A stretch of DNA of 64,000 bases. It comes from a virus. The stretch lies in IMG/VR virus record IMGVR_UViG_3300027749_000060, positions 45,419-109,418 of that record; one strand, 5' to 3'. The notes beneath the pieces were generated by a model, which worked only from the letters and a program-made list of their open reading frames with translations, made no database searches and had not been told where the DNA came from. Numbering within the stretch: position 1 is the first letter of the stretch; each line of letters starts with the position of its first letter. Positions 12,955 through 64,000 of this stretch are shown one piece after another. The position numbers were made by a program, and so were the translations under genes.

Positions 12955-15900
12955 ATGGCAACTAGAAAGACACTAAATCTTCTTCCGAGTATATTTCAAA
13001 CGGAAACCAATAAGAAATTTCTTGGTGCAACACTAGATCAATTGGTCAGCGAACCAGATATTTCCAAGTTCAATGGATTTATAGGAAGAAAGTTTTCACC
13101 GGTTAATAAACCTAGTGATAATTTTATCAACGAGCCTACAGTTAGCAGAGAAAATTATCAATTTGAACCGGCTGTTGTTATTAAAAATACTAGTAATGGT
13201 ATTGACCTATATGCAGATTACCAAGACCTATTAGAAAAAGTTGCAAATCATGGCGGGATAACAGAAAATCATAATAGATTATTTGAATCAGAATATTATA
13301 GTTTTAATCCTAGAATTAATTTTGACAAATTTATTAACTATACCAGATATTTTTGGTTACCAACAGGTACCGATCCTGTAACAGTATCTGCAGGCACACC
13401 CGGCAATGATAGAACATTTGTCATTACTAGAAATGATCCAGGCGGTTATGCTACTATAAATCAAGACTCCACTCCAAATTCAACTATAACATTAGTACGT
13501 GGCGCAGTATATAAATTTAACGTCAACCAGCCCGGTGCCAAATTTTGGATTCAAACAGAAGTTGGTATAGATGGCTTTAAAGATTTTAATCAAACTATCT
13601 CTACTAGAGATATTATTGGCATTGAAAATAACGGTGCCGAATCCGGAACTATTACTTTTACTGTGCCAGACAAAGATTCGCAAGATTATTATTTTAAAAT
13701 GCCATCATTGGGATTTATTGATTATGCTATTAGTGAACCGTTCTCTGCAATTGACGGTCAGTTTTGGGTAAACGGTAATAATGCAATGGATCAAATTGAA
13801 GGTTCAACTCGATATCCACAAGGTTATTATGTTGTTTTTACATCAACTAGTACAAATCCTGATAACTGGATTGATTATACGGGTAATCCAGTACCAATAG
13901 ATAAACGACATGGTCTTTGGAAAATTACTATTAATCAAAATTCTAAAATACAAATGGAGTTTGTTAGAACAATACCGTTGGGGTATAAAATTAGAATTAA
14001 TTATGGAGCAAATGCTGGTAAAGAATTCTTTAAAAATTCAGGAGATAATTTAGTACTATCTCCTCCAATTACTGCACCTTTATCAACATTGTTTTATCAA
14101 GACGAAAACAATGAATCTATAGTGGGAAAAATCAACATTGTTGATTTTCCGGGTAATGCAATTAATGTTAATTCGGATATATTGGGCAAGGTTACATACA
14201 CTAGTCCTAACGGTGTAGTGTTTACCAATGGGTTAACAGTTGTTTTTGATAACACTGTATTTCCTAATTCGTATCGCAATTCAAAATATATCATTGAAGG
14301 TGTTGGAAAATCAATTAAATTAATTGATATAATATTATTAGAATCTGTTGAGAGCGTTGACACGAAATCTAGTGTGCCATTTGATCAAGAACCATTTGAT
14401 ACTCTTGGATTAGATCAACCAATAGCAAACAGTGTCGCTATACCCGACTATATTGTTATGAATAAATCAACAACAGATTTAAATGCATGGGCTCGCGGCA
14501 ATAGATGGTTCCACGAAGATATAATTGCAAAAGCAGCTGAATATAATAAAACAACAGTAAAGATTGATCCAACTAAAAGAGCAAATAGACCAATCATCGA
14601 ATTTGAAGAAGATTTACAATTATTTAATAGTGGAAAGAACTTTCTTGCTATAATAGATAGGGCCGACACTAATTTTGTAGGAACTGGCGAAAAAATATTA
14701 AATGCATACACTGATGTTAATGACAAATATGTCAATGATGCGTCTATTAGACGTTTAAATTATATAGAAAATCAAGTAGCTATTTTCCCCAATGATATTA
14801 GTAGTAATGTTAGAAATGCATTATTTAGAATTGAATTTAAAAATCAAACTACTGCAACATCATTTAATGGAGTTGGCACCGGATATGTTAACATACGTCA
14901 GGGATCAAATCGAGTTTATGAAAAAATATTAGATGGTAATAGAACAACATTCAGAGATCAATATATACCGGGTACATTGTTATATGCAGTGGATAATACG
15001 TATATTGGAAAAATAAAATCAATTTTTAGTAACAACGAAATGATTTTAGAGTCGCCTGCATTAGTGACTCGTAACGAAGTAGTTGTAAAATTTAATTATC
15101 CTAAAATTACTTTACGCAAAATAAAGACAGCAGTCAATAATGATTCGGTGGTTGTCAGGACTGGACTTAATCAAAAAAACACATTCTGGTTAAATTCAGG
15201 AGTCTGGGCATATGCACAATATAAAAAAGATGTTAACACTCCTATTAAATTTGATGTAGTTGATAAAGATGGCATTAGTTTATCTAGTCCATCTAAGTAC
15301 ACCGAAAGTAAATTTGCTGGAACAACTGTATTTTCTTATGACATAGGCAGTAGTATATCAGATCCTATACTTGGTATCAAATTGCGGTATACTGGCATAG
15401 GTAATTCAATATCAGATATCAATTTTGTAAATTCTTTTGAAACTGATACATTTACATATAAACCATATGATTATAAAACATTAAATATTTCGTCGATTGG
15501 GTATTTAAGTAAACGCACTGGAAGAAATACTTATAGCTTGCTCACTGTTTGGCAATCTATATCAGAGCCTACAAAACAATATCAACATATAGCAGATTTG
15601 TCCGATGGTACAACTAACTATTTTGAAATTGATATACTGCCCGGTGATATAGTAAATCAGCCAAACATAAAAGTTTTTGTTAATAATGTACTAATTAAAA
15701 ATGAAGATTTTGTTATAGAAACGGTAGGGATCAGACATGCTGTTAATATATTAACTACAGTCCTTGACGGTGATAAGATTGATATATTAATTTATAATAA
15801 AAAATCAATTAGTGATCTTGGTTATTATCAAATTCCAAGTAACTTAGAATTTAATGCACAAAACTATGATATAACAAACGTAACACTAGGACAACTCAGA

Positions 15901-18900
15901 GGGCATTGGAATGCTATTGGAAAAAATACTATTGGATTAATTGGAAATCCTATTTCATCAAATAATCTACGTGATCTGAATACTAATGCACAAAATGGTT
16001 TAATTCTACAACACTCGGCGCCTACAATTTATGCATCGTTGTTTTTAATTGATCCGCATCTTAATTTTATTAATAGTATTGAATTTGCACGTAGTGATTA
16101 TTCAAAATTTAAAAATAAGTTTTTAGAACTATGTGTAAACACACCGGGGCTTCCCCGTAATAATACACCAGCTGGTGTTGATATGATATTAAAAATTATC
16201 AACGGTGTAAAAAATCAAACATTTCCGTGGCATTATTCAGATATGATTCCATGGGGCGATGATGTTGTATTAGATACATATAAAATAATTAATGCACAGA
16301 CTAGACTGTATACACTGAATAATATATATCTATCGCCAATTGGCGATAAAATGTATCCAAAAAATGGTCCATCAAATTGTGCTGTTCTTGTTTATCTTAA
16401 TAATAGATTATTAGTCATTGATGTTGAATACACCATTACTAATGGTAATCCTTATATTACTATTAGTGATAGTGTGTTATTGTACGAGGGTGATTTACTT
16501 ACAATAAAAGGTTACAAAAATACTGACGGTAGTTATGTGCCCGAAACACCTACTAAAATGGGAATGTATCCTAAATTTGTTCCAAGTATATTTGTAGATA
16601 CAGCATTCAGAACACCTATAAATGTAATACAAGGACATGACGGAAGTAGACTTCCAGTTTTTAATGATTTGCGGGACGACTATCTACTAGAACTTGAAAA
16701 AAGAATATTTAATAACATTAAAGTAGAATACAATGCTGAATTATTTGATGTATTTACATTTGTACCCGGCAAGTTTAGAAATAATGACTATACCAGGCTT
16801 GAATTTAATGAAGTATTAAATTCTGATTTTTTAAAATGGATAGGAACTAATCAACTAGACATTGGCAGCAATGAATATTTCTTATCCAATAACGAATTCA
16901 GCTGGAATTATAATCAAGCATCTGATTCTATTAATGATGAATTGTTGCCAGGTTATTGGAAAGGAATTTATCAATATTTCTATGATACGTGTCGCCCGCA
17001 CACACACCCATGGGAAATGTTAGGACTACAAAATAAACCAGTCTGGTGGGAACCTACATATGGCGCCGCCCCCTATACACCTTCCAAAACTCAAATGTGG
17101 ACCGATTTGGCATATGGATTTAATCGCGGCGATCGTACCACTAATACACAATATGCAAGGCCTGGATTATTGAAAATTATTCCAGTTAATGATGCCGGGG
17201 AATTATTACCTCCGGTGTCTAAATTAGTAAAGAAATATAATGGGACTACATTTAATCAAAGTTATGCAATAGGAGATCAAGGGCCAGTTGAGTCGGCCTG
17301 GAGAAATACCAGCGAATATGTATTTTCATTACATCGTGCAATAGCGTTATTAAAACCTGCTAAGTATTTTGGATTATTTTTTAATACCTCTTCGTATATC
17401 AACGATCCGGTAATAAATCAGTATGTTTTAAAAAATAATAAAAAGAGAATAACTCCAGAGTCGTTGCTAATTAACGGAGAAGTAGTGTCAGGTGCAATAA
17501 CCAGATCGTCAAGTTACGTAAATTGGATACATGGTTATCTGACTAATTTAGGAATTAATGCTGCACAAAAAATAAGAACTACAATTAGTAATCTGGATAT
17601 TAGACTAGGATATAGGATGTCTGGTTATAGTGATAAATCTTATTTCACTGCTCTGGTAGAACAGTATAGTCCTAACAGTGTAAATCAATCTGCTATTATT
17701 CCATCTGAAAATTACATTGTTCATTTAAATAAAAGCTCGCCTATACGTAGTGCAACCTACAGTGGGGTTATTATTTCTAAAACTACAGGCGGTTATGTTA
17801 TCAATGGATATAATTTAAAATATCCTTATTTTACAGTTATACCTAGTTTAATAAATGGCAATTTTTATAGAATTGAAGCAGTAACAGCAACTGCAATTAT
17901 ATATAAAGATTACATTGATCAAAAAATAAATGTACCGTATGGATTTGAATTTGGTTCATCGCAAGAGTTAGTTGACTTTTTAGTTGGCTACGAACGATTT
18001 TTAATGTCCCAGGGTTTTATATTTGAAGCATATGATTCAGATCTTGGTGAAGTAAAAAATTGGATACTAAGTGCAAAAGAATTTTTAGGTTGGACTTTGC
18101 AAGGGTGGAACGAAGGTAATATATTAGTATTAAGCCCAGTTCATTACACACTACAATTGTTTTCAACTGATTCAGTTGTGGATACAGTCATTGGGCAAAC
18201 TTCTAATACTCAAGTATTGGGACCAAATTTTAATGTTATCAAAGCCGACGAAATTGCAGTATTAAAAGAACCGGGACGTACAACTGTTACTGTAATTTCT
18301 GGACAAACTATTGCATTTATAGAATTGCAGTTGGTTCAATATGAACATGTATTAGTATTTGACAACACAACTGTGTTTGCTGATGTTATATATAAACCAG
18401 AATTGGGCAGTCGACAGTATAGATTAAAACTAATTGGATCTAAAACCACTGGGTGGGACGGATCATTAAACATACCTGGATTTATTTACAACACAGGATA
18501 TATTGAACAATGGACCCCTGGCAGAGATTACAAAAAAGCAGATATTATTCAATATAAAAAACAAAACTATACAGCTATAGCAGATATATCTGGGACAGAT
18601 ACATTTAAACATGATCTATGGAGTATAACTGATCGTAAAATTGTAGCAAAATTAGTACCAAACTTTTCTCAAAATGCGTCTAAGTTTAATACGGTGTATA
18701 GCTTGGATACTCCAAATATAGATAGTTACTTTTCAGGATTCAGTAATGGGTTAACAGGATATAGGAATAGATCGTATCTTGAAGATTTAGGAATGGATCA
18801 AATTGCTCAAACTAAATTTTATCAAGGCTATATAAAAGAAAAAGGCACATTTAGTTCAATATCGGCACTATTTAAAGCTCGTCTTGATAATACAATAAAC

Positions 18901-21900
18901 AATGTAGAAATATTTGAGGAATGGGGTCTAAGAGTAGGCGAGTATGGAGCAACTAAAACAAATCAATCAATTGATTTAATCTTAGATGAAAAGAAGTTTC
19001 AAGATGATCCAATAGTATTTTCAGTCATTAACGGAATAGAAATTCCACCTCCGAATGTAAAATTCTTTCGACCTAATACTTTATTAAGCAAAAGTATAGA
19101 TTTTAAATCGCCGTTGTTTTCGCATCGTCCAATGAATGAATACTTTGAGACAGATATAAAAACAGCAGGATATGTCAATATCAATGAGGTTGATAGCTTA
19201 TTATTTGATTTTAATAATTATAAAAACTTAAATTTAACAATATTGGCTGATCTAGTAAATGGATATAAACTTTGGGTAGCTAAGGATTTTAATAAAGATT
19301 GGCAAGTTTATAAAGTAGTAGAAGTAGACAATCAAGTACTTGGTATTAGTTACGGCCTTGACAACAAAGTTATTATTACTACTAAGTATGATCACGGCTT
19401 ACAAATTGCCGATATAATAGCTATCAGAGATTTGAATTCTCTATACGACGGTTTTTATCAAGTATTAAATGTTGAAGCACCGAATACTTTTATTTGTATA
19501 ATATCTACAAGTTTAATATCATCAATACAAACTGTTCCAGTTTATGGAACCGGCACTTTATTTTTATTACAGAAATCAAGATATAAAACAACAGAACTCA
19601 GAGAGTCTAATGTCACTAAAAGTATTTGGCAAGCTGGAGATTTAGTCTGGGTGGATGAAAACAATGGTCCAAATTGGGCTACATACAAATTTGTAAGTAG
19701 CGATCCTGGAAATTTTGGTGGACTGCACAATTTCTGGGGAATAGACAGCGGCTCAATAATATTCAGATCGTCTGGATTACCATATCACGAATTTGGAAAT
19801 ATACAGTTTGATGTAACCGCAGTTAAACAAAATTATAATCGTATTTGGCCTCTTTATGCTGGAAAAAATATACCTGCTACTGTAGCAAGTCCGATTGGCA
19901 GCGGAATAATTGGATTTTGTTTAAATGGAGTTCCAATTTATAGTAGTATTGCTGCCGATTTTACAGCACCTGCTGATTATAGTACCCCTGGGGGATTTAA
20001 TTATAACTTATCGTTCTCAGATTACAATTTCTTTAAGATAGATAATGCCGGAGGTACTACAACATTTAGCGGCGAATACTTTTATAGAAGTTTTACTTTT
20101 GGACAGGCCTGGAATACCGGTATTGGTGGTAGTGATACTAGAGTAAATGTAGAATATAAGTCGGAAATTTTATCTATTGCATATTTAGGCGGTGGTTTGG
20201 CTCATGCCAATGGCCATAGTAAAATATTAGGATTTGCAATCGACGGCTATCCAATTTATGGGCCGTATGGTTATTCAAATCCAAATAATATTCGTACACC
20301 AATTATAAGGATGACCAGCGGTTATGCACTTAGAAATCCTTCGTACAGAGCACCAACTGAAGCATGCGATTTAAATGTATATCCAATGGGTATGTTTGCA
20401 CAAGATTACGAATTTACTCAAGACGGGACACTAGACAAACATAACGGTAGATATTGTATTACTCCTGACTACCCTAACGGTACCTATGCATATTTTGCTA
20501 CTGTTAATAACTCCGGGCCTACATATCCATATTTTATCGGACCTACTTTTTACGGAACTGTTTCGTCAGTGAGCAATTCTCTTATACCGGGACCCGGCAT
20601 TAAACCTCGGGTATTTGACGACCAGGTTAACGCAGTTTGGGAATTATATAAAAATCAGGAACCGTCGGTTGATTTTAACAGTATGCGTGGTATGCATCTA
20701 ATAGATAATGTTAATAAGAATATACTTGTTAAGTTAGATATAATTGATCCAGCTAAAGGAAGAATACTTGGGTCGGCACAAGCTGATATTGATTTTACTA
20801 CTTCGTTTGATCCTGCATTTTATAACAATGGTACAAATGATGCATTGACAATTGATAGTGAATTCAATTGGGGTGAACAACAAATAGGATTAGTCTGGTG
20901 GGATTTGGAAGCTGTCAGATATTACGACTACGAACAAAGTACTATTGAATATAGAGCAAACAATTGGGGAAAAGTGTTTCCTGGAAGTAATATTTTTATA
21001 TACGAATGGGTGTCAAGCGACGTATTACCGTCAATGTATGTTGCTGCTGGATTAGATGGTATTCCAAAATATGCAGACGACTCGGGGTATTCTACATTAT
21101 ATTATGTCGACGACATCACAATGACAGTTAAGACCAAATATTATTATTGGGTCAGAGCTAAGAATAGTGTAGGGAAAACATCTAAATCGCATAGCGTGTC
21201 TGGATTAGAGCAAATGGTTGCGGATCCTGGAAAACAAGATATACCATATGCAGCATTGATTGATAATAAAACTGTTGCATTATATAATATTGGAAAATAT
21301 CTATTAGAAGATAGAGTAGCATTGCACATTGAATATTCATTAGCTAAAAATGAAAATATTGTACATAGTGAATTTGAATTATTTCAACAAGGTAACAAGA
21401 ATGCAATAATGCATCCCCGAATTGAGAAAAAAATAATTGATAGTTTAGTTGGGGTAGATGAAAATAAAAATTTAGTACCTGACCCTAGTTTATTACCTGC
21501 CGATCGCCTTGGGGTCTCGGATCGCCCAAGACAATCAATAATAGCTGATAGATTAGTAGCGCTCGACAATATAATTGGATTTATTAATCAAATTATATTA
21601 AAATATCCAGTTGCAACACGCATATTCGATAAAGAAACAGTATACTCTGATAATTTCTATGCAGCAGAGCCGTATCCTGCCAAATCCGAATATGATTTAA
21701 TAGTTGACACATTTATACAGTTAGATTATCTATTTGAAATATATCCAACTGATTTAGTAGTAGGTACAGAATATATTATTGCACAAGCTGGTAATACTAA
21801 TTTTGTTGAGTTAGGTGCAAGTGCAAATCAAATTGGCGTGAGGTTTAAAGCAACAGGCACCGGGGTTGGGCTTGGTACAGTATTCCATAGTCGTATATTG

Positions 21901-24060
21901 GTTGCCAAAGATATCAATAACGGAAATAGATGGGCAATTTATTATAAACGTGTAGGTATTAATCCTTTGCCATTATTGTTAAAAATTCAATCTTATAACA
22001 CAACTAATTTTTGGAATTTTATAGATTGGTATGCAAAAGGGCACGATAAGAATACACTAGTAGTTACTAAAAGTTTTGACAATTATAACTTAACATACAC
22101 AGATACCTTTGACATAGGAGATATTGTTAAAATTAATGATAACGGAAAAGGTAAATTTTCAATCTATAGATATAATGAAAATAGTACCCTTGAGTTAATA
22201 GCCATAGAGTCGGGTACAATTGAGATATCTTCTGAATTCTGGAATAAATCTGGATTTGATCACGAAGGAATGGATTTCTTATCATTTGATTATAGTTACT
22301 TTGAAGAACTACGATACATATTTAAAGGTATTAAAGAAGATATTTTTGTAAAAGATTTAGAAATTTATTACAATCAATTTTTATTCTATGTAATTGAATA
22401 TGTACTGTCGGAACAGAAATATGTAGACTGGATTTTTAAAACTAGTTTTATAACAGTTGCACACGAATTGCAAGGGTTAGTGCAATTGCCTTCGTATGTT
22501 AAAGATAGACAGACTCTGTACGAACAATATATCAATGAAGTCAAACCTTATAGAACAAAAATTAGAGAATACATACTAAAATATTCCAATTTGGAAACGT
22601 TAGATACCAACACAGTAACTGATTTTGACCTACCATCATATTATGATTTTGATTTAGGAAAATTCCGTAGCCCCAATGGAGAATTTCCAGGCAAAGACCA
22701 AGTATTATTAGCAACAAAACCAGAGTATCAAGATTGGAAAAACCACCATGGATATTCAATTGGGTCAATTGAAATAGCAAACGCAGGAATTGGTTATATT
22801 AGTAATGGACAAGTCGTAACACCCGACATATCTATAGTTCCTACCGATGAAACAGGATATGGTGCCAATGCTACCGCAGTAATAGACGAAAGAATTGCTG
22901 GTGCAATATCGTCTGTGAACATTAAGACACCCGGAGATTTTTATACTACTACACCACTAATAGTTGTTAGCGGAGTGGGAGCAACTCAAATGAGTCGATA
23001 CCAAGCCGGACATCCAAAATCAGCTCTACTATCTCCGAGATTGTTGAATAAGAAAATAAGAAAAATTAATACGGTAATGAAATTTGACAGAGTTACGTAC
23101 GACACTCAAGTTCAAGAATGGGCCCCGAATACTAACTATGATAATGGTGTATATGTAACGTACCAAGGGAAATGTTATATAACCAACTCAAATATTGGAA
23201 CATTGAGCAAATTTGATAAAACTCAATTTGTTAGCGTAACGTCAAATGTATTCGACAATGCAAACGATCGAATAACTGCATTTTACAATCCCACTGCCTC
23301 AATGATACCAAAAACATTATCCAGACTAATGACTGGCTTGGATAGACCTATACTGTCCGGAGAACAGAATGTAATAATTGATACAGCAATACAAGGTGGC
23401 GGGTTTACTGGAACTTCTATAGCAGCAGGAAGATTTGTATTAGGTAAAGACTATATTATTATTAATATAGGTAATACAGATTTTACACTATGCGGAGCCT
23501 CGTCTAACAAAGTAGGACTGAAATTTACAGCAACCGATGTTGGGATTGGGACCGGATCGGCAACAATTGCGTTGTCTACATCTGGGTACGGAACAGCATC
23601 TGGAATTGAGCCAGGAACAATTACATTAACAGGTGGTGCATTTGTTTATGAAACATTCAGCCATGCCCCAGAGGAATTATTACCTGGTATAACATTTGAT
23701 GCTGTCAGCATCCGTGTCGTTGACGATAATGGAGTTGGATATAGAAAATTTGTAAACATGAATCAAATAAAAACTGTTTCAAATACAGCACCGCAAAGTT
23801 TAACTACGCTCTCACAAGATTTGTTAATTACAGATCAAACCATAACAGTGTCAGATTCTAGCAAACTTTATACACCTAGTAGACTTTCAATTTCGCCCGG
23901 TTTAATATTTGTAAATGGTGAGCTAATTGAGTATTACACTAAAACTAACAATGTACTTGGTCAGTTACGCAGAGGTGTAGGCGGAACTGGGACTCCGATG
24001 GTACATCTATTAGGTAGTACTGTTGAAAATTCCAATCTCCCCGGAGCACTGAGACTATAA
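12955..24060 (+). CDS. Giant baseplate/tail structural protein (3701 aa, gp7 position) with YHYH-like domain
   Basis: Takes the place that gp7/gp8 hold after gp6 in T4 but is over three times longer than gp7 (1032). N-terminal sequence (NLLPSIFQTETNKKFLGATL, FNPRINFDKFINYTRYFWLP) marks a virion protein of T4-like aquatic phages. Modules seen: two CBM5/12-like patterns (18490-18600 and 23110-23200); a YHYH-like domain at about 19890-20560 with FAIDGYPIYGPYG, HNGRYCITPDYPNGTYAYF and PYFIGPTFYG, in which the namesake YHYH is AYFA; two copies of the G-TDF-GAS module near 21750 and 23430. The end resembles fibre attachment sequence. A wedge or peripheral receptor-binding role is inferred. Weakly spaced AATAGG precedes the ATG. 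Confidence 0.65.
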   Translation: MATRKTLNLLPSIFQTETNKKFLGATLDQLVSEPDISKFNGFIGRKFSPVNKPSDNFINEPTVSRENYQFEPAVVIKNTSNGIDLYADYQDLLEKVANHGGITENHNRLFESEYYSFNPRINFDKFINYTRYFWLPTGTDPVTVSAGTPGNDRTFVITRNDPGGYATINQDSTPNSTITLVRGAVYKFNVNQPGAKFWIQTEVGIDGFKDFNQTISTRDIIGIENNGAESGTITFTVPDKDSQDYYFKMPSLGFIDYAISEPFSAIDGQFWVNGNNAMDQIEGSTRYPQGYYVVFTSTSTNPDNWIDYTGNPVPIDKRHGLWKITINQNSKIQMEFVRTIPLGYKIRINYGANAGKEFFKNSGDNLVLSPPITAPLSTLFYQDENNESIVGKINIVDFPGNAINVNSDILGKVTYTSPNGVVFTNGLTVVFDNTVFPNSYRNSKYIIEGVGKSIKLIDIILLESVESVDTKSSVPFDQEPFDTLGLDQPIANSVAIPDYIVMNKSTTDLNAWARGNRWFHEDIIAKAAEYNKTTVKIDPTKRANRPIIEFEEDLQLFNSGKNFLAIIDRADTNFVGTGEKILNAYTDVNDKYVNDASIRRLNYIENQVAIFPNDISSNVRNALFRIEFKNQTTATSFNGVGTGYVNIRQGSNRVYEKILDGNRTTFRDQYIPGTLLYAVDNTYIGKIKSIFSNNEMILESPALVTRNEVVVKFNYPKITLRKIKTAVNNDSVVVRTGLNQKNTFWLNSGVWAYAQYKKDVNTPIKFDVVDKDGISLSSPSKYTESKFAGTTVFSYDIGSSISDPILGIKLRYTGIGNSISDINFVNSFETDTFTYKPYDYKTLNISSIGYLSKRTGRNTYSLLTVWQSISEPTKQYQHIADLSDGTTNYFEIDILPGDIVNQPNIKVFVNNVLIKNEDFVIETVGIRHAVNILTTVLDGDKIDILIYNKKSISDLGYYQIPSNLEFNAQNYDITNVTLGQLRGHWNAIGKNTIGLIGNPISSNNLRDLNTNAQNGLILQHSAPTIYASLFLIDPHLNFINSIEFARSDYSKFKNKFLELCVNTPGLPRNNTPAGVDMILKIINGVKNQTFPWHYSDMIPWGDDVVLDTYKIINAQTRLYTLNNIYLSPIGDKMYPKNGPSNCAVLVYLNNRLLVIDVEYTITNGNPYITISDSVLLYEGDLLTIKGYKNTDGSYVPETPTKMGMYPKFVPSIFVDTAFRTPINVIQGHDGSRLPVFNDLRDDYLLELEKRIFNNIKVEYNAELFDVFTFVPGKFRNNDYTRLEFNEVLNSDFLKWIGTNQLDIGSNEYFLSNNEFSWNYNQASDSINDELLPGYWKGIYQYFYDTCRPHTHPWEMLGLQNKPVWWEPTYGAAPYTPSKTQMWTDLAYGFNRGDRTTNTQYARPGLLKIIPVNDAGELLPPVSKLVKKYNGTTFNQSYAIGDQGPVESAWRNTSEYVFSLHRAIALLKPAKYFGLFFNTSSYINDPVINQYVLKNNKKRITPESLLINGEVVSGAITRSSSYVNWIHGYLTNLGINAAQKIRTTISNLDIRLGYRMSGYSDKSYFTALVEQYSPNSVNQSAIIPSENYIVHLNKSSPIRSATYSGVIISKTTGGYVINGYNLKYPYFTVIPSLINGNFYRIEAVTATAIIYKDYIDQKINVPYGFEFGSSQELVDFLVGYERFLMSQGFIFEAYDSDLGEVKNWILSAKEFLGWTLQGWNEGNILVLSPVHYTLQLFSTDSVVDTVIGQTSNTQVLGPNFNVIKADEIAVLKEPGRTTVTVISGQTIAFIELQLVQYEHVLVFDNTTVFADVIYKPELGSRQYRLKLIGSKTTGWDGSLNIPGFIYNTGYIEQWTPGRDYKKADIIQYKKQNYTAIADISGTDTFKHDLWSITDRKIVAKLVPNFSQNASKFNTVYSLDTPNIDSYFSGFSNGLTGYRNRSYLEDLGMDQIAQTKFYQGYIKEKGTFSSISALFKARLDNTINNVEIFEEWGLRVGEYGATKTNQSIDLILDEKKFQDDPIVFSVINGIEIPPPNVKFFRPNTLLSKSIDFKSPLFSHRPMNEYFETDIKTAGYVNINEVDSLLFDFNNYKNLNLTILADLVNGYKLWVAKDFNKDWQVYKVVEVDNQVLGISYGLDNKVIITTKYDHGLQIADIIAIRDLNSLYDGFYQVLNVEAPNTFICIISTSLISSIQTVPVYGTGTLFLLQKSRYKTTELRESNVTKSIWQAGDLVWVDENNGPNWATYKFVSSDPGNFGGLHNFWGIDSGSIIFRSSGLPYHEFGNIQFDVTAVKQNYNRIWPLYAGKNIPATVASPIGSGIIGFCLNGVPIYSSIAADFTAPADYSTPGGFNYNLSFSDYNFFKIDNAGGTTTFSGEYFYRSFTFGQAWNTGIGGSDTRVNVEYKSEILSIAYLGGGLAHANGHSKILGFAIDGYPIYGPYGYSNPNNIRTPIIRMTSGYALRNPSYRAPTEACDLNVYPMGMFAQDYEFTQDGTLDKHNGRYCITPDYPNGTYAYFATVNNSGPTYPYFIGPTFYGTVSSVSNSLIPGPGIKPRVFDDQVNAVWELYKNQEPSVDFNSMRGMHLIDNVNKNILVKLDIIDPAKGRILGSAQADIDFTTSFDPAFYNNGTNDALTIDSEFNWGEQQIGLVWWDLEAVRYYDYEQSTIEYRANNWGKVFPGSNIFIYEWVSSDVLPSMYVAAGLDGIPKYADDSGYSTLYYVDDITMTVKTKYYYWVRAKNSVGKTSKSHSVSGLEQMVADPGKQDIPYAALIDNKTVALYNIGKYLLEDRVALHIEYSLAKNENIVHSEFELFQQGNKNAIMHPRIEKKIIDSLVGVDENKNLVPDPSLLPADRLGVSDRPRQSIIADRLVALDNIIGFINQIILKYPVATRIFDKETVYSDNFYAAEPYPAKSEYDLIVDTFIQLDYLFEIYPTDLVVGTEYIIAQAGNTNFVELGASANQIGVRFKATGTGVGLGTVFHSRILVAKDINNGNRWAIYYKRVGINPLPLLLKIQSYNTTNFWNFIDWYAKGHDKNTLVVTKSFDNYNLTYTDTFDIGDIVKINDNGKGKFSIYRYNENSTLELIAIESGTIEISSEFWNKSGFDHEGMDFLSFDYSYFEELRYIFKGIKEDIFVKDLEIYYNQFLFYVIEYVLSEQKYVDWIFKTSFITVAHELQGLVQLPSYVKDRQTLYEQYINEVKPYRTKIREYILKYSNLETLDTNTVTDFDLPSYYDFDLGKFRSPNGEFPGKDQVLLATKPEYQDWKNHHGYSIGSIEIANAGIGYISNGQVVTPDISIVPTDETGYGANATAVIDERIAGAISSVNIKTPGDFYTTTPLIVVSGVGATQMSRYQAGHPKSALLSPRLLNKKIRKINTVMKFDRVTYDTQVQEWAPNTNYDNGVYVTYQGKCYITNSNIGTLSKFDKTQFVSVTSNVFDNANDRITAFYNPTASMIPKTLSRLMTGLDRPILSGEQNVIIDTAIQGGGFTGTSIAAGRFVLGKDYIIINIGNTDFTLCGASSNKVGLKFTATDVGIGTGSATIALSTSGYGTASGIEPGTITLTGGAFVYETFSHAPEELLPGITFDAVSIRVVDDNGVGYRKFVNMNQIKTVSNTAPQSLTTLSQDLLITDQTITVSDSSKLYTPSRLSISPGLIFVNGELIEYYTKTNNVLGQLRRGVGGTGTPMVHLLGSTVENSNLPGALRL

Positions 24061-24930: not shown

Positions 24931-26142
24931 ATGGCATATAATATATACAAATCAAATGGCGATTTGTTATCCATCGTCGATGACGGCTTTGCCGATATAA
25001 ATTCTGCTAGTGTTGCATTAATAGGAAAAAATTTCCCAGGATATGGCCAATACTTTAATGAAAATTTTGTTCACTTAACAGAAAATTTTGCTAGTGATAA
25101 TGCACCCGATAATCAGCTAACCGGACAACTCTGGTATCAAACTAGTACTAGTCAATTGAAAATATGGAACTCGACTGAATGGGTATCTGCAGGCAAGCCA
25201 ACTATTATCAATGACAATGCCAGTGCTAATAGACATTTTGTAACGTTTGTTGATAGTTTTGGCGGCACACCAGATTTTAAAGTTGCAGCAAACAAAGGTA
25301 TAACTTTTATACCTAGTTCTGGATTCTTTGGTCTTGGTGCAGAAAACCCAGACTCTAAATTAACAATTAGTACTAACATAGGTGCTGCCCTTGCAAATCC
25401 TGCACCAAATTTAAATACCGCAGTGCATATATTGGGTGACAATGGAAAAAGTCAAACTCTGTTAACAGAAAGTTATGGCGGCAATGGTCCAACTTATAAC
25501 GCTAATAATGCTCCTATTATAGCATTACGTAGAAATAACGGAACAGGAGCTGGCAGGGAAGCAGTCAAAGTATCTGATATACTTGGTGTAATAGCAGGAC
25601 AAGGCTACAACGGAACTTCTGCTACTACAACCAGAATTGGTATCAATTTTGAAGCAACTGAAAACTGGAGTCCAACTTCTACGCCTACCAGGATGGTGTT
25701 CTATACAACACCAACGGGCACTATAACAACAGCAAACGCAATAGGAATATTGAGCAACCAAACATTAGAGTGTTATGGCAATGTATCCATGCAAAAAAAT
25801 CTGACTACCACTGGGTTTATCAGAGCCGGCGGCGACGTAACAGCATATTATACATCCGATGAACGACTTAAGACAAATGTTTTACCCATAAGCGATGCAT
25901 TAGATAAAGTTGCATCATTGAATGGCATTACATTTAATTGGAATGATTTGGCAACAGACAAAGACCTGACTGTCAGGGAAGCTGGGCTTTTTGCGCAAGA
26001 TTTATTAAAAGTTTTACCCGAATCCGTTACAGTCAGGGATAATGGATATTTAGCAGTTCAATATGAAAAAGTAATTCCGTTGTTGGTTGAAGCTATTAAA
26101 GAACTTGTAGCAGAAATAAATGCTCTTAAAAAAACTGTTTAA
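24931..26142 (+). CDS. Tail fibre protein with C-terminal S74 intramolecular chaperone
   Basis: 403 residues. The N-terminal part (about 1-110) reads as a virion-attachment domain found in aquatic T4-like fibres (NFPGYGQYFNENFVHLTENF, QLTGQLWYQTSTSQLKIWN). The middle is a glycine-rich beta fibre. From about residue 300 comes the S74 domain, with the self-cleavage motif TSDERLKTNV (Ser near 309, Lys in RLK), then LNGITFNWND and a terminal coiled coil. S74 domains trimerise the fibre and then cut themselves off. It is likely a trimeric side fibre or short fibre. Confidence 0.85.
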   Translation: MAYNIYKSNGDLLSIVDDGFADINSASVALIGKNFPGYGQYFNENFVHLTENFASDNAPDNQLTGQLWYQTSTSQLKIWNSTEWVSAGKPTIINDNASANRHFVTFVDSFGGTPDFKVAANKGITFIPSSGFFGLGAENPDSKLTISTNIGAALANPAPNLNTAVHILGDNGKSQTLLTESYGGNGPTYNANNAPIIALRRNNGTGAGREAVKVSDILGVIAGQGYNGTSATTTRIGINFEATENWSPTSTPTRMVFYTTPTGTITTANAIGILSNQTLECYGNVSMQKNLTTTGFIRAGGDVTAYYTSDERLKTNVLPISDALDKVASLNGITFNWNDLATDKDLTVREAGLFAQDLLKVLPESVTVRDNGYLAVQYEKVIPLLVEAIKELVAEINALKKTV

Positions 26143-40101: not shown

Positions 40102-40336
40102 TAAAAACAATTTCGTTGGCCAGATCTTCTAAATCTAATCGATCTTTAAGATACTCGTTTGCAGTTTCGACAAAACTATTTAATAGATGTGGCTGACTTG
40201 TCATGATTGAAATCTCAGCTGAGCGAGCCAAATCATCCAAGTAACGCTCACAATCTAGTAACTTAATTTGTAAGTCTGTAATTACTTGACGAGCTTGTTT
40301 AAGACGTTTTACAGAGTCTGGATTTACAATTTTCAT
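40067..40336 (-). CDS. Small helical protein
   Basis: 89 residues, nearly all helix (VKRLKQARQVITDLQIKLLD, ERYLDDLARSAEISI), likely a coiled coil. The start overlaps the vWA-protein stop as ATGA, so it is translated with that gene. It could be an adaptor of the vWA/MoxR pair, judged only by coupling. Confidence 0.5.
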   Translation of the reverse strand: MKIVNPDSVKRLKQARQVITDLQIKLLDCERYLDDLARSAEISIMTSQPHLLNSFVETANEYLKDRLDLEDLANEIVFNDVTITTVIPD

Positions 40337-41592
40337 TTGACTGCATCCTCGTAGTGAGCCCAGATACCAAACGGTGGTTGAGCAGATTCATTACCTTTAA
40401 TAATCCAAACGGTGTCGCAGTAGTTGGCATCACCCCAAGACCCATTTGGGTAACCGTCAGTGAACACAACCAACTTCTTAGGCTCAATTCCGTTCTCTTT
40501 CATGAATTCAAAATTGGCTTCGAACAAAGTGCCACCGCCGCCTGCTGGCTCGTACTCGGAAATTTGTTTCATGTTGTCTTGTGTGAATTCTTGCATGTTA
40601 TGAACATCAGTATCAAAACACCACACTTTAATTTTGTAGTCGGTATAAGAATCCATAATGCCTTGGATTTCTCCTAAGAATATTTTAAGTTCTTCGTTAC
40701 CAATGCTACCTGAAGTATCAATGGCTACACAGATATCAACAGTTTCTCCATACTTGGTACCTGGCAGGATAGCATCCATATGCCAGCCTCTGCGGTTAAC
40801 TCGCATGAAGCTGTAGTCATCTTTGATTGTACTTTGAATCTGTTGCAACAACAATTCGCGCCAGTCAATAACCGACTCAGTCATATCTTTAATTAGACGC
40901 TTGACACCATCGGGCAAATCATTAGAACCAGCGGCCTGTGCAGCCTGCAATACTGCTTCTTTGATTTCGTCACGCAAGGCTTTACGTTCGTCTTTGCTCA
41001 GTTTAGGCCGACCGTTGCCATCGCCGTCTTGATCACCATCACCATTGCCATCACTGTCATCTTCGTCTAGATGCTCGTCTAGCATTTGATCAATCAATTT
41101 TTTAATGTCAATCTTTTTAGCATTCTTATACAAGTCGTCGTAGACTTCTTCGTAGCTCATGCCGCGATACTTACGATCTAGTAGAATTGGAACAGTGGTA
41201 ATCTTCTGACCAATATTGTGATCTACTAGATCTTGATTAACGCAATAGTCGGCAGCAATGTTACTAAGCACCGGGTCACGATTTTCACGACGTCCTAAAT
41301 GATCATATACCACATGCAACACTTCATGCCCAAACAAGAACTCGCATTCTTTTAAACTTAGACGATTAATGAATTCGCTATTGTACCAAAAATTACGTCC
41401 GTCGGTAGCGGCAGTAGAGCACCAGCTATCGCCGTTAATTAGTTTTAACCGAGTTGCCAAGTTACCAAAAAACCCAGCTCGCAATAACAAACCTACACGA
41501 GCTGTAATAAGTTTTTCGCGGGCAATTGCATCAATTTTAGGATTGGTAACTGTAACGACTTTTTGTTTTTCTGCTAGGGTAGTGTCAGACAT
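40333..41592 (-). CDS. Metallopeptidase-like and vWA-domain protein (DUF2201 type)
   Basis: 419 residues. The N-terminal half is a zincin-like domain with HEVLHVVYDH (89-98) and LSNIAADYCVNQDL. An acidic Asp/Gly-rich linker (about 175-195) follows. The C-terminal half is a von Willebrand A domain with the metal-ion site DTSGSIG (about 292-298) and VVFTDGYPNGSWG. Such proteins usually work with a MoxR AAA ATPase, and one is encoded immediately upstream. The pair probably remodels or activates a protein complex in the infected cell; the target is unknown. It has its own consensus promoter (41615-41643) and a CAGGATAT ribosome site. Confidence 0.85.
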   Translation of the reverse strand: MSDTTLAEKQKVVTVTNPKIDAIAREKLITARVGLLLRAGFFGNLATRLKLINGDSWCSTAATDGRNFWYNSEFINRLSLKECEFLFGHEVLHVVYDHLGRRENRDPVLSNIAADYCVNQDLVDHNIGQKITTVPILLDRKYRGMSYEEVYDDLYKNAKKIDIKKLIDQMLDEHLDEDDSDGNGDGDQDGDGNGRPKLSKDERKALRDEIKEAVLQAAQAAGSNDLPDGVKRLIKDMTESVIDWRELLLQQIQSTIKDDYSFMRVNRRGWHMDAILPGTKYGETVDICVAIDTSGSIGNEELKIFLGEIQGIMDSYTDYKIKVWCFDTDVHNMQEFTQDNMKQISEYEPAGGGGTLFEANFEFMKENGIEPKKLVVFTDGYPNGSWGDANYCDTVWIIKGNESAQPPFGIWAHYEDAVK

Positions 41593-41646: not shown

Positions 41647-41672
41647 AAAAAAGAGGCTTGCGCCCCTTTTTT
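41647..41672 (-). terminator. Rho-independent terminator after the MoxR gene
   Basis: On the minus strand GGGGC and GCCTC pair around a GCAA tetraloop, flanked by six A and followed by six T, right at the MoxR stop. Confidence 0.85.
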
Positions 41673-42771
41673 ATTTAACTGCGGCAACCACGTACTTACC
41701 AAAACGCTTATGGAACTCGTCAAAGTTCTTGATCTTGCCAGGCACAAACGGAATGCCGTATGTGGTAATAGCAATACGCGATGCCATAACTACCAATTCA
41801 GTAGTGAAATTATCCATGATGAAGCGGAAGAAATTATCCGTCATCTTAGTCCACTCTTCTGACTTTGGACCCAGTTTATCAAAAGAATCTTTGAGTTCAT
41901 AGCATAAGCTGATAGTCAAAGAGTACATGGCACTGATCTCTTTAATTTTCAGTTCAGTGATACGACCTTTCAACACTTCAACTGGGTCGGGCATCTGACC
42001 TGCTACTTTACGATGAGCCATAAACTTAACTGCAAGCCCTTCGCCTACTGCACCAGAGATCAAGTCAACAGTGCCAGAGTCCATACCATCATCGTCGTCT
42101 AGCAGTTCGCTAACAAAGACCCACGAACGTGGTGTAGCAAAGGACCGTGTACTAGAGCGTGGGTCAAAGTCAAACAAGTCTTGTTTAGCAAAACTCAAGT
42201 AACCGACAACATCTTTATGGATCTTGTTGTTAACTGCCCATGTCTGCCAGGATTCAAAGTCTACTCGTAGTTCCATATGAATGAAACGATTGCTCAATGG
42301 ACTAGGCATACGGAAAGTAACGCCTTTATCGCTTTCGCGATTACCGGCCGCAACCATAACAACATTCTTAGGCAATACATACTTGCCGATACGACGGTTT
42401 AGAATAAGTTGATAAGCCGCCGCCTGCACACTGGGAGCCGCTGAGTTTAGCTCATCAAGGAACAGAACAATAATAGGATACTGACTGGCCATTTCTTCAT
42501 CGGGCAAATCAATAGGAGGAGCCCAATCCATTTTACTTTTTTCTTTGTTGAAGAAAGGAATGCCGCGCAGGTCAGTTGGATCCATCTGGCTTAGACGCAG
42601 ATCAATCATATGCCCGCCCAAGTCTTCAGTAATGCCAGCTACCAGCTCGCTCTTACCAATTCCTGGGGGACCCCAAAAGAACACAGGTCGTTGTTTCTTA
42701 AAACAACGCATGAGACCACGACGTGCCTCAACTGGAGTAACTGTACGTGCATCTGAAATCTGAGTAGCCAT
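41671..42771 (-). CDS. MoxR-family AAA+ ATPase
   Basis: 366 residues. Walker A GPPGIGKS (34-41), Walker B VLFLDELN (102-109), sensor-1 region KNVVMVAAGNRESD, and the arginine-finger strand FRMPSPLSNRFIHMEL follow in MoxR order. MoxR ATPases act as chaperone-like motors for metal or complex insertion and typically pair with vWA proteins, as here. An AAAGG ribosome site precedes the ATG. The region upstream has a TATAAT (42800-42805) beside a long inverted repeat. Confidence 0.9.
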   Translation of the reverse strand: MATQISDARTVTPVEARRGLMRCFKKQRPVFFWGPPGIGKSELVAGITEDLGGHMIDLRLSQMDPTDLRGIPFFNKEKSKMDWAPPIDLPDEEMASQYPIIVLFLDELNSAAPSVQAAAYQLILNRRIGKYVLPKNVVMVAAGNRESDKGVTFRMPSPLSNRFIHMELRVDFESWQTWAVNNKIHKDVVGYLSFAKQDLFDFDPRSSTRSFATPRSWVFVSELLDDDDGMDSGTVDLISGAVGEGLAVKFMAHRKVAGQMPDPVEVLKGRITELKIKEISAMYSLTISLCYELKDSFDKLGPKSEEWTKMTDNFFRFIMDNFTTELVVMASRIAITTYGIPFVPGKIKNFDEFHKRFGKYVVAAVK

Positions 42772-61689: not shown

Positions 61690-61976
61690 TGTGTAAGCAT
61701 CCTTGTTAATCCTATACTATCAATTGTAATCAGCAGTGAGTAGTTTGCCAGCATGCCAAAAGATCTACGGCTATAACTAGCCCACCCATACATACAACAC
61801 TGAATAATAAAAACAGGATAAATGTAAATAAGAGGCGGATTAGGTACAGTGAGTGCCATAGTGATACTGCATCCAATTGAAATAACCCAAGCCGCAGCTT
61901 CAACGATAAAACGAACAGGGTTAGTTTTATAGTCGTTTTTGATCCACGTAAAAACATTACGGATACTGTCGTTCAA
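61686..61976 (-). CDS. Small membrane protein, three segments
   Basis: 96 residues with a TTG start that overlaps the upstream stop (TTGA). RFIVEAAAWVISIGCSITMA, PPLIYIYPVFIIQCCMYGWA and MLANYSLLITIDSIG would each cross the membrane. I know similar proteins before gp43-type genes only vaguely; transport or anchoring of replication is speculative. Confidence 0.6.
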   Translation of the reverse strand: MNDSIRNVFTWIKNDYKTNPVRFIVEAAAWVISIGCSITMALTVPNPPLIYIYPVFIIQCCMYGWASYSRRSFGMLANYSLLITIDSIGLTRMLTQ

Positions 61977-62233
61977 AGTGTCTTGCCTACAGTTTCCAAT
62001 ATAGTATTTAGATCGTCGTGATCGCGATTGGTCTCGCCTAGTTTACTCTTGCTGGCTATCTTAATTGCTTTTTTAAGAATAGCAGGCTTAACTTCAAGTT
62101 CTTCAGCAATTGCTTTGATGGTTTCGTTGAGCCCTGTGCTTAGTGCTTCAACTTCGGCCATTACTTGCATGCCTTCATTGATAATTTGTGTTAGTTTAAT
62201 TTTTTGATCGCCGCTGAACATACGTGCTGTCAT
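61973..62233 (-). CDS. dsbA: DsbA-like double-strand DNA-binding protein
   Basis: 86 residues with AAAGGA before the ATG. LNETIKAIAEELEVKPAILK then KAIKIASKSKL matches the DsbA pattern (LIKDI--RAKDELG-DG-FN) seen in T4 (89 residues), where DsbA binds late promoter regions. Its N-terminal half is amphipathic helix. It begins the operon with gp43 under the 62262 promoter. Confidence 0.6.
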   Translation of the reverse strand: MTARMFSGDQKIKLTQIINEGMQVMAEVEALSTGLNETIKAIAEELEVKPAILKKAIKIASKSKLGETNRDHDDLNTILETVGKTL

Positions 62234-62261
62234 AAAGATCCTTTATAGTGAATTATAGTTA

Positions 62262-62290
62262 ATTATAGATTACTTATTTCACAAAAGCAA
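62262..62290 (-). promoter_or_regulatory. Sigma-70-type promoter for the DsbA/gp43 operon
   Basis: TTGCTT (62285-62290) and TATAAT (62262-62267), spacer 17; a second TATAAT (62252-62257) lies 4 bases downstream of the first. Confidence 0.65.
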
Positions 62291-62300
62291 GTGTTTAGAT

Positions 62301-62318
62301 AAAAAAAGTGCTCACTTT
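62301..62318 (-). terminator. Terminator after the GC-rich element
   Basis: On the minus strand AAAGT and ACTTT pair around GAGC, followed by seven T. Ends the transcript running from 62409 downward. Confidence 0.6.
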
Positions 62319-62402
62319 CGAGATTCCCGGTAGCGAATCGGGCCGTCCCGCGCCAGCAGCCGGCGCACACTTAATATAACGCAAAGGTCCTAAGATAGTG
62401 TG
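62319..62402 (-). ncRNA. GC-rich structured RNA element, unclassified
   Basis: Non-coding stretch between the metallopeptidase stop and a terminator. In an AT-rich genome, 62326-62366 is strikingly GC-rich. Complementary arms: GCGCC/GGCGC (62350-62354 with 62362-62366); CCCG/CGGG (62326-62329 with 62339-62342); alternative CGGG/CCCG (62339-62342 with 62347-62350); CACACT/AGTGTG (62366-62371 with 62397-62402). The strand is inferred from the downstream terminator; I do not recognise a family, and tRNA does not fit. Could be a 3' UTR structure or a small RNA. Confidence 0.45.
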
Positions 62403-62408
62403 TTCGTA

Positions 62409-62804
62409 TTAACCGTTAATGTAATTTGGATGCGCTTTATTAAACTTGCGCATAATAATGCCAGCTACGCTATTAGCTTCGTTTTCTTCATCACTGCCAG
62501 TTTCGCCGCTGTTGGCATTAAGTTGATCTTCTTGGTGTTGTTTAAAATGAACAAGTTCGTGTGCCAGTGTTCTACAAATATCAATTGGATGTCTGCGATC
62601 TATACCCAAACTAATGGTCATATCTGATGGGGAAAAACTACCAAATGTAGGCTGCTCTTGTTGATTCATTGATTTGAAAATGTTAATTTCAGGTAAGTTA
62701 GTTAGTCCTAGTTCTTCCATGGCCAATGGAAGTAAATCCTTTATTGCACTGTATACAACTTGGTAGGATTCCTTTGATTCAACTAGGAATTCAACAGCTC
62801 TCAT
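62409..62804 (-). CDS. Zincin-like metallopeptidase
   Basis: 131 residues from the ATG at 62804, which overlaps the upstream stop by one base (TAATG). LAHELVHFKQHQED (80-93) is an HExxH zinc site, followed by Glu-rich EENEANSVAGIIMRKF that may give the third ligand. Resembles small phage peptidases of the HELVH type. There is no signal, so action is inside the cell or in assembly. Substrate unknown. Confidence 0.65.
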   Translation of the reverse strand: MRAVEFLVESKESYQVVYSAIKDLLPLAMEELGLTNLPEINIFKSMNQQEQPTFGSFSPSDMTISLGIDRRHPIDICRTLAHELVHFKQHQEDQLNANSGETGSDEENEANSVAGIIMRKFNKAHPNYING

Positions 62805-64000
62805 TATTCTTGATCTCGCCAACGTTTCTCTGCAGAGTCCCAATATCTTCCACCAACTACATTTTTGGTTTCTGTTTTAGATTCTTCATATGGTTGCTCT
62901 TGTGTATCAGGCTCATTGGTAGCCGGTACAACTTGATCGTAGTCTTTCATGGTCAGAGTATTACCATTACTACTTAGATTTACTAGTTTTTCTGCCACAT
63001 CGTGCAAATCTAAGTCAGTTTTTGCATCTTCTCTAGCAAATTCCATTACACGCAATAGCATAGGAACGTCCATGGTGACAGTATCAGTTGGATTAGATGA
63101 TGCTTCTTCGTCTAAGTTTATTAATTTTAGATAGTGGCGCTGTAGATATTCTTTAGCCCATTTTGCATCATCAAATAATGGACCAACACGCACACCTGAA
63201 TGATTTAACACTTCAAATCTTTCGCCCTTGCTACCGTCCGGTCTCATGATATTAACTTTACGTACACGCGGTCTGCCAGATTTAATTTCTTCGCCCTCGG
63301 GAATCATACCATTGCGGGCACTGTCTTCTAATTCTAAGTATGCAGCCTTGGCTTTTTGATAGTTGGTCTCGTCACCAATTTTATCGTAATGTTGCATCAG
63401 GTCGTGCAGTCGATCTGCTTCTTTAATATAATCACGCATGCTCATTTTAGCAGGTTCGGCAGATTCGTTTTTATCTTGCCACCAGTAATTACCGTTAACA
63501 GGTTTTGATTTAGGCAACGATGGTGTTTTATTCAACATACGGCTACGTGCAGCTAGCGCCATTTTTTTTAATGTTTCTGGATCTTTGCCACTTAGATTGG
63601 GATGAGTGGAAGACTGGAAACGTTTAATCCATGTGTCTGGGGAATCGTTTGCAGTTAGTTTACCTTCGTCTATTTGTTGTGCTAGTATGCGTTCGACTTG
63701 TTTAATCCAGCTATTTAAATTATTCGATTCAATACCTTGTGCATTGTTTCCAACCATGCCTGCAACAGAATTAATAGCATCACTTACACGATCAGACCCA
63801 TATTTTAGTAAATCTGGTCGTTTTTCTGTAATGCCCTTAACGATAGCACTTATAACAGAACTATTCGACACGCCTTCCGCCACATTTGACTTATAACTTG
63901 GTTGTGTTTGTGCATCGGTTTCTTGAACTGCGGCTACTAATAATTTATTTCCAGCCTCTATTGCTTTTTCTAATGCTTGTTGTCTACTAGTCCATATTAT
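62804..64000 (-). CDS. Unknown conserved phage protein, truncated at right edge
   Basis: The frame is open to the window end (399 codons). A GTG at 63883 is not the start, since uninterrupted coding sequence (QQALEKAIEAGNKLLVAAVQ) continues beyond it. Seen parts: a helical N-terminal region, a GNYWWQDKNESAE loop, a Lys/Asp-rich helix pair (MRDYIKEADRLHDLMQHYDK), a beta piece with HSGVRVGPLFDDA, and VPMLLRVMEFAREDAKTDLD near the end. The last part recalls a short domain shared by marine phages. Function unknown. Confidence 0.65.
   Translation of the reverse strand: MIWTSRQQALEKAIEAGNKLLVAAVQETDAQTQPSYKSNVAEGVSNSSVISAIVKGITEKRPDLLKYGSDRVSDAINSVAGMVGNNAQGIESNNLNSWIKQVERILAQQIDEGKLTANDSPDTWIKRFQSSTHPNLSGKDPETLKKMALAARSRMLNKTPSLPKSKPVNGNYWWQDKNESAEPAKMSMRDYIKEADRLHDLMQHYDKIGDETNYQKAKAAYLELEDSARNGMIPEGEEIKSGRPRVRKVNIMRPDGSKGERFEVLNHSGVRVGPLFDDAKWAKEYLQRHYLKLINLDEEASSNPTDTVTMDVPMLLRVMEFAREDAKTDLDLHDVAEKLVNLSSNGNTLTMKDYDQVVPATNEPDTQEQPYEESKTETKNVVGGRYWDSAEKRWRDQE

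Follow-up and report, generated by a model that had tools for sequence, protein, structure and literature searches.

Introduction

To our knowledge, guided modification of rRNA is not known in bacteria or phages. In T4-type phages, PeSLs are mobile intergenic cassettes near promoters that combine a promoter with a stem-loop and occur in several copies. Some of the RNAs GOLLD, ROOL and OLE, all far longer than ~95 nt, are linked to phages, and the s2m motif of RNA viruses resembles the 530 loop of 16S rRNA. GOLLD, ROOL and OLE are described as conserved structured RNAs whose function is not settled (PMC12286853), and s2m as a highly conserved motif at the viral 3′ end with no established function (PMC3197151). 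Archaea and eukaryotes have C/D and H/ACA guide RNAs, which are small, structured and complementary to functional sites in rRNA, and two-part guides are described for some of them (PMC3608112, PMC7991803). Small RNAs derived from bacterial 3′ UTRs, of which CisR from prtV is a described example (PMC13250501), lie directly after a coding sequence. Host ribosomes are known targets of phage proteins (PMC10914614); for phage RNAs we found no such report in the open-access literature.

The RNA described here comes from a window of 64,000 nucleotides, the whole stretch of DNA that was analysed, in a 109-kb viral contig. Sinorhizobium phage Phosso has the DNA polymerase most similar to that of the contig (51% identity). 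Like the guide RNAs, the RNA is small, structured and complementary to functional rRNA sites, whereas C/D or H/ACA boxes were not evident by eye among the invariant columns of its consensus. Like the 3′-UTR-derived small RNAs it directly follows a coding sequence, with no upstream promoter of its own seen; it differs from them in being complementary to rRNA instead of mRNA, in having three hairpins and a pseudoknot, and in being phage-encoded. It is intergenic, as PeSLs are, but single-copy and with conserved loops and a pseudoknot, and it is much shorter than GOLLD, ROOL and OLE and has no Rfam match. While s2m resembles the 530 loop, the phage RNA carries the complement of that loop, and the two differ in sequence and structure. 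By analogy, guide RNAs would be its nearest counterparts in function and 3′-UTR-derived small RNAs in location, and we file it under neither. We found no description of this RNA in the open-access literature.

A family of structured RNAs in uncultured phages

The first-pass annotation, made from the letters of the window, had marked 62301–62402 as a hairpin-rich RNA element and the most GC-rich non-coding stretch there. The element is richer in GC than its surroundings (52% at 62300–62399 vs 30–44% in the neighbouring 100-base windows) and the RNA is real, but its extent is offset: the member in the window is about 95 bases long, within a family range of about 75–105 nt, and its features are collected in the table below. 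Beyond this stretch the flanks of homologous loci diverge. A 22-base piece, GGTAGCGAATCGGGCCGTCCCG, has exact matches in 11 viral contigs with differing surroundings, and a looser two-gap pattern was found in at least 120 viral contigs; all of the matches listed align as one element. Scans of viral contigs each gave at least 120 matches, and we compared 155 distinct members among the matches listed. A covariance model (R1) matched the window at 62403–62310 on the minus strand with 67.7 bits (E = 1.6e-15), the window sequence being among the rows from which R1 was built; loci left out of model building scored 32–84 bits. We are therefore nearly certain that many uncultured phages carry this family of structured RNAs and that the window holds one member.

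Features of the RNA and its surroundings in the window
Feature	Position	Strand	Remarks
Upstream gene	62409..62843	−	144 aa; stop codon 2 nt before the RNA
Structured RNA	62310..62406	−	5′ end GAACACAC at 62406; 3′ end AGUGAGC at 62310; exact ends inferred
P1 5′ strand CACACU	62397..62402	−	pairs with 62366–62371; P1 covaries in the family
Word (a) CUAUCUUAGGACC	62386..62398	−	complementary to 23S 1921–1933, one G-U pair
P1 3′ strand AGUGUG	62366..62371	−	family covariation; window sequence
P2 hairpin GCGCC GGCUGCU GGCGC	62350..62366	−	outermost base 62366 also counted in P1
P3 hairpin	62320..62349	−	inner stem 62339–62342 with 62326–62329; loop AUUCGCUAC at 62338–62330
Pseudoknot 3′ strand AAGUGAGC	62310..62317	−	pairs with the P2 loop
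U-run, possible terminator AAGUGAGCACUUUUUUU	62301..62307	−	just 3′ of the RNA; sequence
Downstream gene	61973..62233	−	86 aa, DsbA-like; phrog_12534, E 9.4e-17

Known families did not account for the element. The search of Rfam that the first-pass annotation had proposed gave no match even at relaxed thresholds: with Rfam 15, the whole window had no match at the gathering score, 61900–62700 had none at E ≤ 5 and the loci of six other members had none at E ≤ 0.5. ARAGORN found no tRNA or tmRNA in the window. The element is not an rRNA or rRNA fragment either, as no Rfam rRNA model matched and its rRNA-related words are antisense and not collinear with rRNA. HEARO/IscB and TnpB-type guide RNAs, small ribozymes and group I introns were rejected for lack of an Rfam match and of a constant protein partner.

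Outside viral contigs the RNA was not recovered. BLASTN with three queries against cultured phages and plasmids returned short chance pieces only, and a second covariance model (R2) had no match in seven large cultured phages. When 84,980 species of bacteria and archaea were scanned with the pattern, 7 matches came up, which we judged by eye to be chance because none has the fold. In 20 viral records of 47–353 kb, some of them possibly fragments, R1 detected a single strong copy each. A second, weak copy (32 bits; L150, 1501–1573, or 76943–77015 of record G004), without CUUAGGACC, lies in the 353-kb record that carries L026.

Comparison of the loci places the RNA on the minus strand. Both neighbouring genes lie on the RNA strand in 93 of 113 loci, and in these 113 loci the upstream stop codon is usually within a few bases of the RNA (both among the matches listed), so that the RNA would be transcribed, if at all, from the minus strand together with the upstream gene. 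Read on this strand, wobble cells comprise 168 G-U vs 55 A-C, and 140 vs 14 outside P1; the excess comes mostly from one pseudoknot position, which makes it strong for the strand of the pseudoknot yet a matter of few independent events. Within P1 alone the wobble count is ambiguous, part of the helix having G-U pairs that agree with the plus strand; since P1 is poorly aligned, the strand was decided from the pseudoknot, P2 and P3.

Fold of the RNA

The fold, shown by covariation, comprises P1, which has an internal loop, and the two hairpins P2 and P3; the P2 loop also pairs with the 3′ end to form a pseudoknot. P1 encloses a near-fixed strand, CUUAGGACC, often together with a small inner hairpin. 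Over 95 distinct sequences among the matches listed, 86.5% of cells are paired in the whole fold; the alignment followed the model across P1, P2 and P3, which favours these helices. P2 is paired in 99.2% of cells, with swaps between G-C and C-G. The pseudoknot is paired in 97.9% with compensatory changes, although it was absent from the model used for alignment. When the P2 loop was left free in the search, loop and 3′ strand varied together, as in GGGUGCU/AGUGACC, GCCUACA/UGUAGG, CCCCCA/UGGGGG and UUCCCC/GGGGA. The covariation score was 0.354 vs 0.115 in shuffled controls (0/500 reached it), and structures slid along the alignment scored at most 0.073. Single-sequence folding energies were not significant (z = −0.59 for the plus and −1.22 for the minus strand); as the fold is visible through comparison only, single-sequence folding is of no use as a test here.

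The complementary arms pointed out in the first-pass annotation are present in the sequence, and pairing is kept in relatives with strong covariation, so the lack of conserved pairing that had been named as grounds for abandoning the element was not observed. The further proposal of a switch in which two arms compete for the same CGGG was rejected: the CCCG/CGGG pairing of P3 covaries, whereas the alternative, GGGCCGTCCC, is missing from part of the family and is not conserved as a pairing. In two members, L269 and L301, P2 and the pseudoknot are gone, and P3, with the loop AUUCGCUAC, is a perfect hairpin followed by a U-run, a terminator-like arrangement. In a subfamily with a long P1 (L058, L064, L121, L184, L215, L245, L248, L267 and L268), CCUUAGG can pair with an internal CCUAAGG, which is followed by GGCGUC or GCGUC.

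Complementarity to rRNA

E. coli 16S and 23S rRNA from an annotated operon stood in for those of the host. The rRNA words reported in the first-pass annotation are all present on the plus strand (GCCAGCAGCCG at 62352–62362, TATAACG at 62375–62381 and GGTCCTAAG at 62386–62394), and we found an additional one, GGTAGCGAA, at 62329–62337. They go beyond chance and are a conserved part of the family; the description as rRNA-like did not hold, since on the minus RNA strand they are antisense. On that strand ACCUUAGGACCG complements 23S 1920–1931, the P2 loop with its closing bases, CGGCUGCUG, complements 16S 519–527, and UUCGCUACC in the P3 loop complements 23S 1929–1937.

Antisense words concentrate at 23S 1917–1938 and 16S 517–528 in most of the 155 RNAs among the matches listed, and there was nothing comparable in the sense direction in the same set. 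Among these matches, GGTCCTAAGG (23S 1921–1930) occurs in 142/155 distinct RNAs, CAGCAGCCG (16S 519–527) in 139/155 and GGTAGCGAA (23S 1929–1937) in 99/155, counts that are inflated because the conserved words formed part of most search patterns. A 13-nt match to 23S 1921–1933 is found in 24 of the 155, again among the matches listed; the version in the window has one G-U.

Word (a), the P3 loop and the P2 loop were therefore each left out of the pattern once, the remaining words still being fixed; the counts that follow are among the matches listed. With word (a) left out, CCTTAGGACC was exact in 112 of 126 distinct members and a further 5 had G-U compatible changes. With the P3 loop left out, it was of the [U]CGCUAC type in 77/98 members, CGCCAU (class ii) in 6/98, and of classes without a clear rRNA target in 9 and 3 of the 98. 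The class ii loop, not specified in the search, is complementary through ACGCCAUUC to 23S 1968–1977 by 8–10 nt, on the far side of H71, while classes iii (GGGAGUCGUGCCCC) and iv (GGCCGGGAAUCC) are without a clear rRNA target. All P3 loop classes carry CG at a similar place. With the P2 loop left out, the 16S match was lost in 35 of 113 distinct sequences, and most of the 35, one or two of which may be chance matches, have a corresponding change in the partner strand of the pseudoknot. The weak second copy, L150, without word (a), has a longer 23S-complementary P3 loop that matches 23S 1926–1936 over 11 bp with one G-U, and the P3 loop of L209 reaches 13 bp with two G-U. The class iii loop AGUCGUGCC is kept across unrelated stems (L210, L212, L214, L220, L224, L228, L229 and L232–L235).

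A duplex scan over every 30-mer of E. coli 16S and 23S rRNA ranked 23S 1901–1930 and 16S 516–545 best for the family. For the window RNA alone the best site was 16S 501–530, and the 23S site was absent from its twelve best 30-mers. Run on the E. coli rrn operon, R2 had its best match antisense to 23S 1878–1938 (14.8 bits, E = 0.014). In shuffle tests, which were post hoc and in which the words of one family amount to few independent events, the 12-mer complement of ACCTTAGGACCG (word (a)) gave P = 0.00015 and the other three words, including those of the P2 and P3 loops, gave P = 0.02–0.06 when taken singly. With this P value for word (a), and with both rRNA sites first for the family in the duplex scan, the rRNA words exceed chance, and the complementarity of the loops to rRNA has statistical support at the sequence level. 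Counting against pairing, the target sites are structured in mature ribosomes.

Genomic context

The genes upstream of the RNA fall into dozens of unrelated groups and those downstream vary too; among the 105 loci in the matches listed there was no constant upstream or downstream partner. The 144-aa upstream protein in the window is possibly metallopeptidase-like, from a weak match below the Pfam cut-off. The 86-aa DsbA-like downstream protein also matches phrog_639 ('transcriptional regulator', E = 3.2e-6), and a DsbA-like 86-aa gene lies downstream in 23/105 loci among the matches listed, the window included. One copy per record with unrelated neighbours argues against a riboswitch or a cis-regulator of one gene and is easier to reconcile with action in trans.

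Of 137 flanks, 24 have a promoter-like motif of the late or sigma70 type within the first 40 nt after the RNA, and 1 has one upstream of it. With a stop codon on its other side, the RNA thus has the end of one gene before it and the next promoter after it, and the earlier suggestion of a small RNA or 3′ UTR element stands in the form of a conserved structured RNA at this position. The terminator that had been placed after the element fared less well. A terminator scan of the window region reported none at the RNA, and the sole U-run is the minus-strand one 3′ of the RNA (see table). Across the family, TTTTT is found within 25 nt downstream in 22/137 members vs 5–10 in later windows. A termination-coupled element in fixed register to the stop codon was rejected, the distance being too variable.

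Discussion

Taken as a whole, the explanation that we put forward tentatively, with a chance somewhat short of even, is that a 3′-UTR-derived phage RNA binds rRNA at the subunit interface. The RNA would be transcribed together with the upstream gene, as the 3′ end of a minus-strand operon, and would be released from that message by processing or terminated near its own 3′ end, to accumulate in the infected cell. Its fixed strand and P3 loop, as complements of 23S H69–H71 (1920–1937; 1968–1977 in class ii), and its P2 loop, usually a complement of the 16S 530 loop, could then pair in trans with free subunits or precursors, at the rRNA of the subunit interface. Such pairing might mask, protect or park ribosomal sites to the benefit of the phage, for example by shielding them from host nucleases, by delaying subunit joining or by holding free subunits. 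The bolder form of the claim, that large uncultured phages use a small RNA which binds host rRNA directly at the inter-subunit and decoding sites 23S H69–H71 and the 16S 530 loop as a means of ribosome take-over, we hold more tentatively still. Since the loops are exactly complementary to rRNA where it is most conserved, these phages may act on host ribosomes with RNA and not protein.

The RNA could instead act in cis from the 3′ UTR, where it would terminate, stabilise or process the upstream message; its loops would be fixed by folding or by protein, and the rRNA complementarity would be coincidental or secondary. The position between stop codon and next promoter, the U-run just downstream in part of the family, and the two members in which P3 has become a hairpin with a U-run while P2 and the pseudoknot are gone would all fit, and we regard this account as unlikely but of real weight. 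It would be strange for a general terminator or stabiliser to occur just once in genomes that reach 353 kb, and the complementarity of separate loops to neighbouring 23S sites, class ii included, is left unexplained. Less probable again is that the loops are conserved for tertiary contacts, for binding a protein or for kissing in a homodimer, and match rRNA by chance. The P3 loop classes share the position of their CG and two of them lack an rRNA target; CCUUAGG is almost self-complementary, which makes a homodimer conceivable; the fully self-complementary palindrome CCUAGG is contained in the variants CCCUAGGACC and UCCUAGGUCC; and one subfamily pairs CCUUAGG internally. Chance is hard to reconcile with the shuffle result for the 12-nt match, with two more loop words lying no more than 60 nt from it in 23S rRNA, and with an unbiased duplex scan that puts the same rRNA sites first.

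Two further accounts can be given little credence. The many unrelated neighbours might suggest that the RNA is a mobile intergenic cassette that does nothing for the phage, but there is one copy per record and selection on pairs and loops is strong, which makes this very improbable. An rRNA mimic or decoy made from the plus strand, as in the first-pass annotation, would account for words that read on that strand as 23S H69–H71 and the 16S 530 loop, and part of P1 has the G-U pairs expected of it. On the transcribed strand, however, the words are rRNA complements, so that the RNA could pair with rRNA without resembling it. The gene context places the RNA on the minus strand, as does the asymmetry of G-U vs A-C in the pseudoknot, P2, P3 and P1b, and no promoter for a plus transcript was seen; we consider the mimic ruled out for practical purposes, with the smallest likelihood of all these accounts.

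If the proposed pairing with rRNA is true, the part of the ribosome that varies least is recognised by a short transcript; this would be a novel type of phage–host interaction and a lead for sequence-guided translation control. Standing as a new category depends on the rRNA reading; if that fails, there is still a new structured-RNA family with strong covariation, which many uncultured phages carry and Rfam 15 lacks.

Other features of the window

Elsewhere in the window, a gene for an HNH endonuclease family protein (40333–41592, minus strand; phrog_1314, E = 2.4e-105) adjoins one for an ATPase (41671–42771, minus strand; phrog_1297, E = 5.8e-98). An open reading frame of 3701 aa lies amid tail and baseplate genes (12955–24060, plus strand), and the product of 24931–26139 (plus strand) carries a C-terminal domain common to many tail fibre and baseplate families, with 36 PHROGs matched.
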